A DNA stretch of 64,000 bases from Alphaproteobacteria bacterium (GTDB taxonomy: Bacteria; Pseudomonadota; Alphaproteobacteria; UBA7887). Position 1 is the first letter of the stretch. Each line of letters opens with the position of its first letter. Shown piece by piece: positions 13,099 through 51,941 of this stretch. A model generated the notes under the pieces. It searched no databases and was not told where the DNA came from. It saw only the letters and a program-made list of their open reading frames with translations. The stretch lies in NCBI GenBank assembly GCA_030739735.1, contig JASLYQ010000011.1, positions 381-64,380 on the forward strand. The letters run 5' to 3'. The translations under genes were made by a program, and so were the position numbers.

Positions 13099-14268
13099 AT
13101 GTCTGCGGTGATGCCGACCTACGGCCGGATAGAAATCGCTTTCGAGTGTGGCAATGGTGCTTATCTCGTCGCGACGGATGGCCGGCGATACCTGGACTTC
13201 GCCACTGGTATCGCCGTCAACACGCTCGGCCATGCCCATCCGCGCCTAATCTCGGCGCTGGAAGAACAGTCTAAGAAGCTTTGGCATTGCTCCAATTTGT
13301 ATCGGATTCCGGAACAAGAGCGTCTTGCCGAACGGCTCTGCGAGCATAGCTTTGGTGAGAGTGTTTTCTTTTGTAATTCCGGCGCTGAAGCAATGGAAGG
13401 CGTTATAAAAGTTGCACGGAAATATCACAGCGCCAGTGGCAACCCGCAACGGTATAGGATTATCGCCTTCGATGGCGCCTTCCACGGCCGCACTTTGGCA
13501 ACACTCGCTGCCGGCGGTAACGAGAAGGCTCTAGATGGGTTTGGTCCAGTGATGGATGGCTTCGACCATGTGCCGTTCGGTGATGCCAACGCAGTGCGCG
13601 CGGCCATAACGGGTGAGACAGGGGCTATTCTTGTCGAACCGATTCAAGGCGAAAGTGGTGTCAACCCTGCCGCGAACGACTTTCTGGCGGAGTTACGGAC
13701 GATCGCCAATGAGTTTGCTATCTTGCTGCTGTTCGACGAGGTACAGACGGGTATCGGGCATACCGGTAAGCTGTTCGCATACGAGTGGTGTAGCGTAACG
13801 CCCGACGTCATGGGTCTTGCCAAAGGACTCGGTGGCGGCTTCCCTATCGGCGCCGTCGTTGCGACGGAGGCGGCTGCTATAGGCATGGTTTCCGGCACAC
13901 ATGGCTCAACCTTCGGCGGTAACCCACTCGCCGTGGCCGCTGGTAATGCTGTGCTGGACGAGATTTTGGCGGACGGTTTCCTAGAAAACGTGAAGGCTAC
14001 AGGCAAGTATCTACACTCGCGTGTCGGCGATGTGGCGGCTCACTACCCCAATATCATCGAATCAGTACGTGGCCAGGGTCTTTTGCTCGGTATGAAATGC
14101 GCCATCACCAACATGGACTTGGTCGCCGATATGCGCGAGCGTGGCGTCCTCTTGGTCCCCGCCGGCGACAATGTTGCGCGCATGCTACCGCCTTTGATCA
14201 TTAGTGAGACCGAGGTCGATGAGGCGGTCAGCGCGCTGGAGACGTCCTGCCAAGAGCTGGAAAGATGA
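13099..14268 (+). CDS. argD: Acetylornithine aminotransferase
   Basis: A 389-residue class III, PLP-dependent aminotransferase that makes N-acetylornithine in arginine biosynthesis. The N terminus (GNGAYLVATDGRRYLDFATG) and the PLP-lysine region GLAKGLGGGFPIGA (Lys near residue 242) are typical, as is LLFDEVQTGIGHTGKLFA with the cofactor-binding aspartate. An AGGAG sits seven bases before ATG 13099. Its stop overlaps the argF start by four bases (ATGA), giving the common argD-argF operon of alphaproteobacteria. It could also act on succinyldiaminopimelate. Confidence 0.93.
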   Translation: MSAVMPTYGRIEIAFECGNGAYLVATDGRRYLDFATGIAVNTLGHAHPRLISALEEQSKKLWHCSNLYRIPEQERLAERLCEHSFGESVFFCNSGAEAMEGVIKVARKYHSASGNPQRYRIIAFDGAFHGRTLATLAAGGNEKALDGFGPVMDGFDHVPFGDANAVRAAITGETGAILVEPIQGESGVNPAANDFLAELRTIANEFAILLLFDEVQTGIGHTGKLFAYEWCSVTPDVMGLAKGLGGGFPIGAVVATEAAAIGMVSGTHGSTFGGNPLAVAAGNAVLDEILADGFLENVKATGKYLHSRVGDVAAHYPNIIESVRGQGLLLGMKCAITNMDLVADMRERGVLLVPAGDNVARMLPPLIISETEVDEAVSALETSCQELER

Positions 14269-15173
14269 CCGCACTGCGTCACTTCCTGGATCTCGACCAG
14301 ATCGATGCGTCCAGCTTGCGTGAGCTGGTCGATCAGGCGGCAATGCTGAAGGCGGGGCGCGGCGGCAACGCCGGTACTCCGCTCGCTGGGCACACATTGG
14401 CGATGCTCTTTGAAAAACCCTCGACCCGCACACGCATCTCGTTCGAGGTTGGCATGGCCGAACTCGGCGGTCGCACGGTTATACTAAACCCTGGGGAAAG
14501 CCAGATGGGCCGGGGTGAGACGGCCACCGATACCGCCCGCGTCTTGTCGCGCTATGTCGACGCGGCGATGCTGCGCGTAAAACGGCACGATACACTAATC
14601 GAGTTCGCCGATGCCGCCGCCGTACCAGTGATTAACGGTCTTTCGGACCGCAGCCACCCCTGTCAGATTCTGGCCGATATCCTGACCTTCGAGGAACACA
14701 AGGGACCGGTCGCCGGCAGAACCATCGCCTGGACAGGCGATGGCAATAATGTCGCCACGTCTTGGATACATGCGGCCGTGCGCTTTGGCTTTACGCTACG
14801 GCTTGCATGCCCCACCCTTCTTGCGCCGAATCCTAAAATTATGGATTGGGCTGCCGAGAACGCCGGCGCGGTTAGCCTGGGTGTGGACGCAGCCGAGGCA
14901 GTCACAGGTGCGGATTGTGTGGTCGCCGATACATGGGTTTCGATGGGCGACGATCCGGGAAGCCGGCATCGCCTGCTCGAGCCCTACCGGGTTGACGCCG
15001 ATTTGATGTCGAAGGCGGCAGCGGATGCTATCTTCCTGCATTGTCTGCCAGCGCACCGCGGTAACGAAGTGAGCGCCGATGTTATCGACGGCTCGAGTTC
15101 GAAAGTGTGGGATGAAGCTGAGAACAGATTGCATGCCCAGAAGGCTGTTCTTCTTTGGTGTCTGAACGCGTGA
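14265..15173 (+). CDS. argF: Ornithine carbamoyltransferase
   Basis: A 302-residue transcarbamylase that joins ornithine and carbamoyl phosphate to citrulline. The carbamoyl phosphate motif STRTR is at residues 53-57, HPCQ near 130, the ornithine loop contains SMGDD, and the catalytic HCLPAHRG is near 262. It is translationally coupled to argD. In many alphaproteobacteria hslO follows; here only a broken hslO relic does. Confidence 0.95.
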   Translation: MTALRHFLDLDQIDASSLRELVDQAAMLKAGRGGNAGTPLAGHTLAMLFEKPSTRTRISFEVGMAELGGRTVILNPGESQMGRGETATDTARVLSRYVDAAMLRVKRHDTLIEFADAAAVPVINGLSDRSHPCQILADILTFEEHKGPVAGRTIAWTGDGNNVATSWIHAAVRFGFTLRLACPTLLAPNPKIMDWAAENAGAVSLGVDAAEAVTGADCVVADTWVSMGDDPGSRHRLLEPYRVDADLMSKAAADAIFLHCLPAHRGNEVSADVIDGSSSKVWDEAENRLHAQKAVLLWCLNA

Positions 15174-15179
15174 CGCGCC

Positions 15180-15521
15180 GTGACTGAAGCTGCCCTTTCT
15201 GACGATCTGATCCAACCATTTCATATCTAGGCGCTTGGCGTGTATGGGCGGCTGGTCAGGCTCGGATCCACCATCAACCAGATCTTGGGTCGTCGCGCCT
15301 ACCCGTCCGCTGTTTCACCTTATGGCGTGGGTTTGTATGAGACGGAGCCGGTGCGTTCTTTCTGCCTCCGTTCGGTCAAGTGGGCTGGTACGCTAGTGCG
15401 CTCATCCCCCAGCGGCGACCACGCTGAGTTAGCCGACGACGGCATCATCTAGATCACTTGCGACTATTGCGGGGCACGCTATCTCTTCGGTCTGGACGGT
15501 GATTTCATCGATTCCGCATAA
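15180..15521 (+). pseudogene. hslO: hslO (Hsp33) relic, middle deleted
   Basis: Starting at GTG 15180, seven bases after argF, a single frame runs 113 codons with two in-frame stops (TAG 15228 and TAG 15450). The first part (VYGRLVRLGSTINQILGRR) matches the Hsp33 N terminus. The second (LYETEPVRSFC, then HAELADDGII, stop, ITCDYCGARYLFGLDG) matches the Hsp33 C-terminal zinc-binding region. About 190 residues of the core are missing at roughly 15310-15330. Only the second CxxC pair of the redox switch survives; the first CxC is changed to CLRS. Position right after argF agrees with the usual argD-argF-hslO order. It cannot make a working redox chaperone. Confidence 0.85.
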
Positions 15522-15579
15522 GGCTTTGTCCTGATGGTGAGCGGTCTATACTTTTCTGACATTGTATGGAGTTTTCCCA

Positions 15580-16152
15580 ATGCGCTTTGCTATCGCCGCC
15601 ACCGCCGCACTGCTGCTGGCTTGTGCACCATCGCCGCCCGAGGCGAACTTCCCAGAGATCGCCTTCCGTGATTCGCCTGCCTTCCGCATCGACGTGGCAG
15701 TGATCGAACTGGTCGAGAGCTACCAGCCTCCACTACGCACACCACACGTGGATCACGAGTCGCCCGTGCCGCCCCTGGTCCTTTTACGCAACTGGGTGCG
15801 GGACCGGCTTGTCGCGGACGGCGCAACCGGTAGCCTCAAGGCGACTGTGGTTGATGCGCGCATCACTGAGACACTGTTATCTGTCAACGAGGATTTGGCT
15901 GCTAGCTTCACAACAGAGCAGGCCGTGCGCTTTGATGGTCGCGTCGAGATGCGCCTGGAGATCATGGATAGCGCGGCCAGCGGGCATGCGAACGTATACG
16001 GGGAAGCCACGCGCTCGCGCACAATGCCGGAAGACGCAACCCTGCGTGAACGCCAGGAAGTTCTGTTTCAGATCGCAGAGGATCTGGCCAACGACCTAAA
16101 CACTGTGCTCGATGGCAACATTCGTCAGCACTTCGCCCGTTATCTGCGCTAG
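15580..16152 (+). CDS. Predicted lipoprotein of unknown function
   Basis: A 190-residue protein whose first 16 residues form a lipoprotein signal ending in a lipobox (LLLACAPS), so the mature protein should begin at that cysteine. The rest is soluble with alternating beta-like stretches (FRIDVAVIELVESY, LKATVVDARITETLL, VRFDGRVEMRLEIMD). It ends with a helical tail that speaks of ADGs and aspartates but has no motif I recognise. ATG 15580 is preferred over 15562 because GGAG lies eight bases before it. It stands alone between the hslO relic and the convergent lysS. I recognise no family. Confidence 0.72.
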   Translation: MRFAIAATAALLLACAPSPPEANFPEIAFRDSPAFRIDVAVIELVESYQPPLRTPHVDHESPVPPLVLLRNWVRDRLVADGATGSLKATVVDARITETLLSVNEDLAASFTTEQAVRFDGRVEMRLEIMDSAASGHANVYGEATRSRTMPEDATLRERQEVLFQIAEDLANDLNTVLDGNIRQHFARYLR

Positions 16153-16156
16153 GACA

Positions 16157-16414
16157 CTATTGGCCGGCGGCTTGGCGGTACATCTGCAGCATCTGAGCGC
16201 GCCCTTTAGGTGACAGATCTTGGGGTGACTGCCGAATTCCAACGCGCGCCTCCGGCCGAAGATAGTCGCCGTCGTCGAAGGTCGTACCGGTGCCGCGCAG
16301 CGCGCGCCAAGTGTTGGCGGCATTAAGGGCGCGCCTGCTAGCCTTCTGAAAGCCTACTGTGTCGGCGCGAGATCGTTCCTGAATGAACGTTCTATTAAGT
16401 TCCGATAGTGTCAC
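16157..16414 (-). CDS. Small hypothetical protein after lysS
   Basis: An open frame of 85 codons whose ATG (16414) lies 20 bases inside the 3' end of lysS and ends just before the convergent lipoprotein gene. It is basic and hydrophilic (ten or more Arg/Lys), with no membrane segment. The arrangement fits translational coupling to lysS, and the frame is preferred over the other minus-strand frame here because of that position. I recognise no family. It may not be a real gene. Confidence 0.35.
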
Positions 16415-17978
16415 CGACTACAACCTTATCGATCAAGGCAACCGTCTCGTCACGCCCGTAAAGGGCAATAAACGAGCCCATGCGCGGCCCCTGACTTTGC
16501 CCCAGCAGAATTTCGTACAGCGCCTTAAACCAATCGCGCAAATTAGCAAAATCGTGCTGGTTGCCGACCTCGTAGACCGTGTTCTGAATGTCTTCCGCAG
16601 AGGCGATGCTCGGTAAGCTCATGAGCGCAGTTGATAGATCCTTCAGCGCCTCGGTTTCGCCCTCCACCGGTGCACGATAGTGCTTTGTGGGTCTGACAAA
16701 ATCCCGGTAATAGGCGATGGCGTAGCCGACCAGCTCGTCGAGCATGGGATTGGCTTCAGGCCTTGCATCCGGCGCGTAGCGGCTGATGAAGCCCCATAAC
16801 ACCGCCTTGTCCTCTGTGTTGCAAACGCTCGCGAGGTTCATCAGGATATTGAAGGAGAGTGGTACCTCCTGCTCCGGCGGCGCGCCATCGTGGATGTGCC
16901 AGACCGGGTTGCTCAGGCGGTCATTTTCGTCCTGGTTGGCGAACTTGGCACGATGGGTCAGGTAGTCATCGACGTGACGCGGAATGACGTCGAAATAGAG
17001 CCGCTTCGCCTTCCGTGGGCTCTGATACATGTAGAGTGACAGGCTCTCCTGCGAGCCGTAGGTCAGCCATTCCTCGATGGTCAGACCGTTGCCCTTGGAT
17101 TTGGAAATCTTCTGACCAGATTCGTCGAGAAACAGTTCATAGGTAAGGTTCTCTGGCGGCGTGCCGCCGAGAATGCGGCAAATCCGGCTGGAAAGCTGCA
17201 ACGATGGACTGAGATCCTTGCCCGACATCTCATAATCGACGTCCAGTGCCACCCAGCGCATAGCCCAATCCGCTTTCCATTGCAGCTTGCAGGCGCCGCC
17301 GGTGACCGTCACCTCGACGTGGCGCCCATCCTCGTCCTCGTAAACGATGGTTCCGGCGTCCACATCACGTGCTACGACGGGAACTTGCAGAACGCGGCCC
17401 GTGCGCGGGCAAAGCGGCAGGAACGGGCTGTAGGTAGCGCGGCGTTCTGGCCCGAGCGTCGGCAGTATGACCTCGGTGACCTTGTCGTAGTGGGCCAGCA
17501 CAGCAAGCAGTGTGGCATCGAACTCACCGCTCCGGTAGGTCTCGGTGGCGCTCTTGAACTCGTAGTCGAAGCCAAATGTGTCGAGAAAGGCGCGCAGGCG
17601 CGCATTATTGTGTGCGCCAAAGCTCTCGTGTGTATCGAATGGATCGGGAATCGCCGTCAGCGGCTTGCTGAGATGCGCCGCAAGCATCCCCTGCTGTGGG
17701 ATGTTCTCGGGAACCTTGCGGAGCCCATCCATGTCGTCGGAGAAAGCGACAAGGCGTGTCGGGATGTCGCTGAAGCACGCAAAAGCCCGACGCACCATGG
17801 TTGTGCGCGCCACCTCGCCGAAGGTGCCGATATGCGGCAGCCCAGATGGCCCGTAACCTGTCTCGAGCAATACATGCCCTTTAACTGGCGTCTTACCGTC
17901 CACTCGGTCGAGCAGCTGGCGCGCCTCCACAAAGGGCCACGCTTTGCTGTGGCGGGCAATCTCATTGATGTCGGACAT
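16395..17978 (-). CDS. lysS: Lysyl-tRNA synthetase, class I
   Basis: A 527-residue class I lysyl-tRNA synthetase (LysK type), unrelated in fold to the class II enzyme of most bacteria. The HIGH-like motif HIGT is at residues 49-52 and the KMSKS-like KISKSKGNG near 292; between them lies the Rossmann core with a zinc-like cysteine region ([15 protein letters not shown]). Class I LysRS is mainly archaeal but typical of alphaproteobacteria, so this supports the lineage. The gene is monocistronic or followed by the 85-codon frame. Confidence 0.93.
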
Positions 17979-49773: not shown

Positions 49774-50844
49774 GTGAGCGTACAACATGATAAACTAGCC
49801 GCGCTGACCGCGGCAATATTTCGCCACGCAGGAAGCTCTGACGACGAGGCTAACATCATCGCGCGCCACCTCATCGAAGCGAATCTAGTTGGCCATGACA
49901 GCCACGGCGTTATCCGCGCACCCGCCTACATACAGTGGGTACAGGAAGGTAAATTGGTACCCAACCAGACAATCACAGCCGTTTTTGAGAACGACTCCAT
50001 GGCGATCGTCGACGGTAATTTCGGCTTTGGCCAGAGCATCGGCGAGCAGTCGGTGGACCTTGGCATAGAGAAATGCCGTAAGTCGGGGCTGGCGCTGGTG
50101 GGTCTGCGCAATGCGGGTCATGTTGGGCGCGTCGGCGATTGGGCCATCCGCGCCGCGGCGCAGGGTCTAGTGTCTATACATTTCGTCAATACCTCCGGGG
50201 GCGGTATACTGGTGGCGCCGTTCGGCGGCATCGAACGCCGGCTATCGGCCAACCCCATCGCCGCCGGCATTCCTGTTGCAGGTGGTGAGCCGATTATCGC
50301 CGACCTCTCAACTTGCGTCATTGCGGAGGGCAAGATCCGTGTTGCGCGCAACAAGGGCGTGCCCGTACCGGATAACGCCATTCTCGACGGCAACGGCGAG
50401 CCAACCACAGACCCGGAAGCCTTTTATGCCGATCCCCCCGGTGCCATTCTCACTATCGGTGCGCACAAGGGCTATGTGCTTTCCATACTCTGCGAAGTGA
50501 TGGCAGGTGCAATTACAGGCAGTGGCTGCTCGAATCCTGACAATCCGACCGCCAAGAAGATTGTCAACGGCATGTGCTCTATCTACATTGACCCAAATAC
50601 GATAGCGAACGACAATTTTGCTGACGAAGTGAAAGGTTTAACCGATTGGGTAAAGAGCTCACCTAAGACTGAGGAAGGCGGTGAAATTCTCATGCCTGGA
50701 GATCCCGAGCTACGCACCAAGGCCGAGCGTATAGCGGGCGGCATCCCACTCGATGATAATACCTGGGCGCAACTTTCCGAGACCGCCGCCAAGGTCGGCA
50801 TCAACAATGCCGAAATCGCCCGCCTCGCCGGGCGAAACGTGTAA
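49774..50844 (+). CDS. LDH2/malate-type dehydrogenase, copy 1
   Basis: A 356-residue NAD(P)-dependent oxidoreductase of the LDH2/MDHG family, which includes malate, ureidoglycolate and (R)-sulfolactate dehydrogenases. His44 and Arg48 are in GHDSHGVIRAP and the catalytic histidine in RNAGHVGRVGDWA near residue 116. It starts at GTG 49774 after AAAGGGGG. It is a paralogue of the next gene, which lies 14 bases downstream. Confidence 0.88.
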   Translation: MSVQHDKLAALTAAIFRHAGSSDDEANIIARHLIEANLVGHDSHGVIRAPAYIQWVQEGKLVPNQTITAVFENDSMAIVDGNFGFGQSIGEQSVDLGIEKCRKSGLALVGLRNAGHVGRVGDWAIRAAAQGLVSIHFVNTSGGGILVAPFGGIERRLSANPIAAGIPVAGGEPIIADLSTCVIAEGKIRVARNKGVPVPDNAILDGNGEPTTDPEAFYADPPGAILTIGAHKGYVLSILCEVMAGAITGSGCSNPDNPTAKKIVNGMCSIYIDPNTIANDNFADEVKGLTDWVKSSPKTEEGGEILMPGDPELRTKAERIAGGIPLDDNTWAQLSETAAKVGINNAEIARLAGRNV

Positions 50845-50858
50845 AGGGTTCCTGGACC

Positions 50859-51941
50859 ATGGATATCACTGCCGATCAGCTGCGCGGTTTTACCGCAGAC
50901 ATCTTCACCGCCGCCGGTTGCAACCGTGAGGAAGGCGAGCGCATCGCCGATTATCTCGTCGGTGCCAATCTTGCTGGCCATCCGAGCCACGGCGTGATCC
51001 GCGTGCCGCGCTACGTCGGCGCAATACGAGCTGGCAAGGTGAATCCCGGACAGAAGATCACCGTGGTCAACGATACTGACGCCATCGCCATCGTCGACGG
51101 CCATTTCGGTTTTGGACAGACCATCGGCGAACAAGCCGTGGATTTGGGCATCGAGAAGGCCAGAAAGCATGGTGTGTCAGTTGTCGGCATCACCAATGTC
51201 AGCCATCTCGGACGCATAGGTGATTGGCCCATCCGCGCGGCGAATGCAGGCATGGTCTCGATCCATTTCGTCAACACCTCCGGCATCGGCCTACTGGTGG
51301 CGCCCTTCGGTGCAGCCGAGCGGCGCATGTCCACCAATCCCTTTGCCGTCGGCGTGCCGGTACAAGGCGAAGAGCCGGTGATCCTCGACTTCGCTACCTC
51401 GATCGTCGCCGAGGGCAAGGTCATGGTCTCTGTCGACGGCGGCAAACCGCTCCCGAAAGACGCCCTGGTCGACGAGGAAGGCAATCTAACTACCGACCAG
51501 TCGGTGATCTACGGGCCGATCACCGAGGAGCGCCCCTTGAACAGCCGCGGTGGCACCGGCGCCATCCGTGCCATGGGTGAGCATAAAGGCTCCGGACTGT
51601 CCATCATGTGCGAGTTGCTGGCCGGTGCACTATCCACCAGCGGCGCCGCCAGGCCTGGTATCGAGCAACTCTCGAACGGCATGCTATCCATTTACATGGA
51701 CGTGGCGACTTTTGATGCGGGGGGTGGTTTTGCCGAAGAGGTCAAGCGCTATCTCGACTTCGCCCGCAGCGCCAAGCCTATCAATTCCGGCGCGCCGTTA
51801 ATGATGCCAGGCGATCCGGAGCGCAGAAAACGCCGCGCCTACGAGGCCAACGGTATTCCGCTCGAGGACACAACCTGGCGCTCGCTGCTAGAGACCGCAG
51901 ACCTCGTTGGCATCAATCGCCCTGCCCTAGATGCTGGATAG
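50859..51941 (+). CDS. LDH2/malate-type dehydrogenase, copy 2
   Basis: A 360-residue member of the same family with equivalent residues (His44 and Arg48 in GHPSHGVIRVP; histidine in TNVSHLGRIGDWP). The two copies are clearly related along their whole length but differ at most positions, so the duplication is old and the substrates may differ. Its end overlaps the start of the TauE/SafE exporter by 11 bases. Confidence 0.88.
   Translation: MDITADQLRGFTADIFTAAGCNREEGERIADYLVGANLAGHPSHGVIRVPRYVGAIRAGKVNPGQKITVVNDTDAIAIVDGHFGFGQTIGEQAVDLGIEKARKHGVSVVGITNVSHLGRIGDWPIRAANAGMVSIHFVNTSGIGLLVAPFGAAERRMSTNPFAVGVPVQGEEPVILDFATSIVAEGKVMVSVDGGKPLPKDALVDEEGNLTTDQSVIYGPITEERPLNSRGGTGAIRAMGEHKGSGLSIMCELLAGALSTSGAARPGIEQLSNGMLSIYMDVATFDAGGGFAEEVKRYLDFARSAKPINSGAPLMMPGDPERRKRRAYEANGIPLEDTTWRSLLETADLVGINRPALDAG

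Follow-up and report, generated by a model that had tools for sequence, protein, structure and literature searches.

Hsp33 and its usual place behind argF

Hsp33, the product of hslO, becomes a holdase upon oxidation of its four zinc-bound cysteines (PMC6758839). Among 80 named loci fetched with the argF gene of the window (i.e. the whole stretch of 64,000 nucleotides analyzed here), an Hsp33 match follows argF on the same strand in 76, usually within 200 bases, and the gene order that an earlier sequence-only reading of this DNA had taken as usual for the α-Proteobacteria is thus borne out. Of the four loci without a match, one lies on a contig that ends 78 bases past argF, and the other three (L072, L101 and L110) have room. 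In L101, a Rhodospirillaceae metagenome-assembled genome, argF lacks hslO and an open frame is found there (3883 onward) before a lipoprotein-like gene. An intact counterpart of the locus studied here belongs to a genome of the same family (G002), in which an hslO of 302 codons (L024:3776-4684) follows argF and precedes the lipoprotein gene that is also seen in the window.

At an E-value of 0.01, an Hsp33 match is obtained in 282 of 387 α-proteobacterial genomes that are at least 90% complete, and in 275 (73%) of the 377 that are at least 90% complete and at most 5% contaminated. About 27% of the latter have no match, and complete absence of hslO is hence common. Remnants caught in mid-decay, on the other hand, are rare: clear cases are those of the window genome (G000), G004 and G042, with G064, G272 and G392 left out. 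Judged by titles and abstracts, the open literature holds nothing on hslO pseudogenes.

A collapsed hslO frame in the window

The locus is anchored by an intact argF (ornithine carbamoyltransferase; 14265-15173, plus strand, as are all features below; Pfam OTCace and OTCace_N), which is 68% identical to the argF preceding the intact hslO of G002. Six bases after its stop begins the whole hslO remnant, a single frame (15180-15521) with two internal TAG stops. An intact lipoprotein gene follows (15562-16152, although its start may be an ATG near 15580); it is conserved behind argF/hslO across the family and has a weak, sub-threshold match to Pfam LptE (E 0.019). The remnant therefore fills the same gap between these two genes as hslO does in G002. 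Read without interruption, frame 1 translates as VTEAALSDDLIQPFHI, a stop, ALGVYGRLVRLGSTINQILGRRAYPSAVSPYGVGLYETEPVRSFCLRSVKWAGTLVRSSPSGDHAELADDGII, a second stop and ITCDYCGARYLFGLDGDFIDSA ahead of the terminal stop; the middle segment opens with ALGVYGRLVRLG, runs to SAVS at the junction, and resumes as PYGVGLYETEPVRSFCLRS to end in ADDGII.

Since pairwise alignment to G002 hslO at the DNA level was scattered, the comparison was made at the protein level. The N-terminal part of the remnant (15195-15317) corresponds to residues 1-41 of G002 Hsp33, with 56% identity, and the C-terminal part (15318-15518) to residues 236-302, the zinc/redox-switch domain, with 46% identity, adding up to 50% identity over 108 retained codons. 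Residues 42-235, which comprise the substrate-binding core and the linker, are absent, a loss of 194 codons that places the junction approximately at 15317-15318. The first stop lies at 15228-15230 and the second at 15450-15452, in front of the CxxC motif. The central claims of the sequence-only reading, that hslO has suffered an internal deletion of about 190 codons, that both ends of Hsp33 are fused in one frame without the core, and that two stop codons interrupt that frame, accordingly hold. The remnant scores 29.7 bits (E 5.7e-7) against Pfam HSP33 (PF01430), above the cut-off of 21.4 bits, over profile positions 218-272. This model does not report the short N-terminal part, but both parts of the translation match Hsp33 by tblastn, as that reading implied they should: the N-terminal one with 56% identity over 41 residues (E 1e-11) and the C-terminal one with E 2e-17, both in a small subject set. 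Scores of this order lie well beyond chance.

The remnant thus resembles hslO in its position after argF, in an N-terminal stretch of the form SDDLIQPF..GRLVRLG and in C-terminal zinc-domain residues that include the CxxC motif, and departs from it in the missing core and linker (about 194 codons), in the two stops and in the conversion of CxC to C-L-R. Where G002 carries CRC and CDYC, the remnant encodes CLR and CDYC. At the former CxC motif (15363-15371) the first cysteine codon is kept (TGC), followed by CTC and by CGT, which replaces the second cysteine with arginine; the CDYC motif (15459-15470) is intact. Codons for all but one of the four zinc cysteines consequently survive (15363, 15459 and 15468), and the statement that just two remain has to be amended. 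Only one of the three lies upstream of the second stop, and the CxxC part beyond it has no start codon. A working Hsp33 combines a full-length frame of about 290-300 aa, an N-terminal substrate-binding core with its linker, and four zinc cysteines in a CxC and a CxxC motif, none of which the remnant possesses in full. Judged from the sequence, these lesions exclude a working Hsp33 from this locus.

The weight of the two stops depends on how TAG is read. This codon terminates 16 of the 49 open frames of at least 250 aa in the 64-kb window (open frames, not verified genes), and it closes the lipoprotein gene at the same end as in its relatives (YLR followed by the stop). We therefore rejected TAG as a sense codon and, TAG being a normal stop in the window, took both TAGs of the remnant as genuine lesions. 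Automated gene calling at this locus may yield a spurious 70-aa protein (15240-15452).

Both ends of the gene remain well conserved and share a single frame, as might be expected if the collapsed gene were still of use, as the source of a short zinc peptide or, by read-through of the stops, of a protein. Against this speak the two stops, in a window where TAG is an ordinary terminator, the loss of one zinc cysteine and the missing start codon of the CxxC part. The conservation itself can be gauged against intact orthologues from other orders, whose mean identity to G002 over the same columns is about 0.40 (the printed mean of 0.417 over 81 rows counts G002 twice against itself), as compared to 50% for the remnant. 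Differences between the remnant and G002 amount to 0.36, 0.31 and 0.60 at the three codon positions, and as a measure of neutral drift these values are uninformative, since the remnant resembles intact distant orthologues. Because its ends are no more diverged from G002 than are those of intact orthologues, the remnant has presumably not been drifting for long. The lack of any sign of long neutral drift counts against a pseudogene, in that the loss of hslO would have to be fairly recent; such divergence fits a recent loss, and does not show retained function.

Losses of hslO in the family and beyond

Within the family, hslO is intact in G002 and heavily decayed in G004. The G004 remnant (L030:2517-2776) sits in the same gap between argF and the lipoprotein gene as that of the window, but it keeps other parts of the gene, around residues 30-70 (tblastn E 6e-10) and 133-161 (E 1e-3), with no zinc domain detected. 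In G001, G003, G006 and G008, argF is still followed by this lipoprotein gene, with no detectable hslO between them, a pattern that speaks against a use for a truncated product. G005 and G007 yield no Hsp33 match either, in assemblies that are only 63% and 70% complete. In a tree of ArgF, the window genome pairs with G002 (support 81/94) and the five other members (G001, G003, G004, G006 and G008) form a group of their own (93/87), a grouping that implies at least two losses of hslO within the family; with moderate support from a single short protein, the tree should be read as an indication of these losses.

A comparable internal collapse occurs in another α-proteobacterial family, in G042 (G042:C15), where it also lies behind argF (L022:3799-4223). 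As in the window, the stretch between the N-terminal part and the zinc domain has been lost. The endpoints differ, falling at about residues 96 and 240 in G002 numbering, and the G042 remnant carries a frameshift after residue 53 and all four zinc cysteines. G236, of the same genus, has an intact hslO, and the collapse in G042 is hence an independent event. That a second collapse also preserves the zinc domain, with its full set of cysteines, is the other point in favor of a functional short peptide or of read-through, but this remnant additionally carries its frameshift, and when set beside the lesions in the window and the empty loci of the four relatives it leaves that explanation very improbable. 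Even less credence is due to the broader proposal that internal collapses of hslO that spare the N-terminal strand along with the zinc domain are recurrent and selected, giving rise to a small zinc peptide with a role of its own.

The hslO pieces of G365 and G308 are found at the ends of contigs and probably result from cuts there. In G272 (G272:C1:3471769-3472648) and G392 (G392:C37:4031-5058) hslO appears as two matched pieces each, and these are possible further broken genes; the split hslO of G272 carries a TGA, in a single-contig assembly.

Absence of Hsp33 from the genome and its possible cover

Over the whole genome (2.64 Mb, 98.8% complete), the Pfam model detects no Hsp33 besides the remnant, and a search with the missing core of G002 alone retrieves nothing credible, with a best E-value of 0.02. 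On the latter result we rejected relocation of the core elsewhere in the genome, and with an assembly this complete a copy hidden in a gap is unlikely. With no working Hsp33 from the locus and no second copy, the organism would be without Hsp33, as the sequence-only reading had anticipated unless another copy existed.

The genome is assembled in 69 contigs, and it could be argued that the real one carries an intact hslO whose ends were joined by the assembler, or by binning of mixed strains. The remnant, however, lies about 15.6 kb inside an 84.6-kb contig, and a misjoin does not create two stops and a cysteine-to-arginine change outside the junction. It would be expected to leave an intact frame on either side, which is not seen, and a detached core piece, of which the G002-core search finds none elsewhere in the assembly; most of the family members examined have lost the gene as well. 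An artefact of this sort is thus hardly to be expected, and we regard the locus, with great confidence, as a genuine and ordinary hslO pseudogene, bearing an internal deletion and stops, in an organism without Hsp33 and as one of several losses in its family. The remnant is of an already known kind, ordinary gene loss caught partway. In the ancestor, the gap between argF and the lipoprotein gene would have held an intact hslO, as it does in G002; in the window lineage, the core that binds substrate and the linker would have been removed by an internal deletion, and point mutations would have introduced both TAG stops and the exchange of one zinc cysteine.

Such a course would amount to the loss of a dispensable hslO without replacement, with CnoX and general chaperones possibly covering for the missing Hsp33. 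CnoX of Caulobacter, also an α-proteobacterium, acts constitutively as a holdase (PMC6282202). The window genome retains a CnoX-type gene (PF14561, E 7e-32), which is likewise present in the family members checked, although the match in G008 is weak, and which may cover part of the Hsp33 job. The remnant offers a view of an oxidative-stress chaperone, kept by many bacteria, in the course of being lost, while related genomes present an intact orthologue or further stages of decay at the same locus, and it adds a data point to the dispensability of Hsp33 in many α-Proteobacteria, with no new mechanism indicated.

Elsewhere in the window, an intact class I lysyl-tRNA synthetase (Pfam tRNA-synt_1f), the less usual type in bacteria, is encoded at 16395-17978, and two adjacent genes of one family (Ldh_2, malate/L-lactate dehydrogenase) are found at 49774-50844 and 50859-51941, 14 bases apart.
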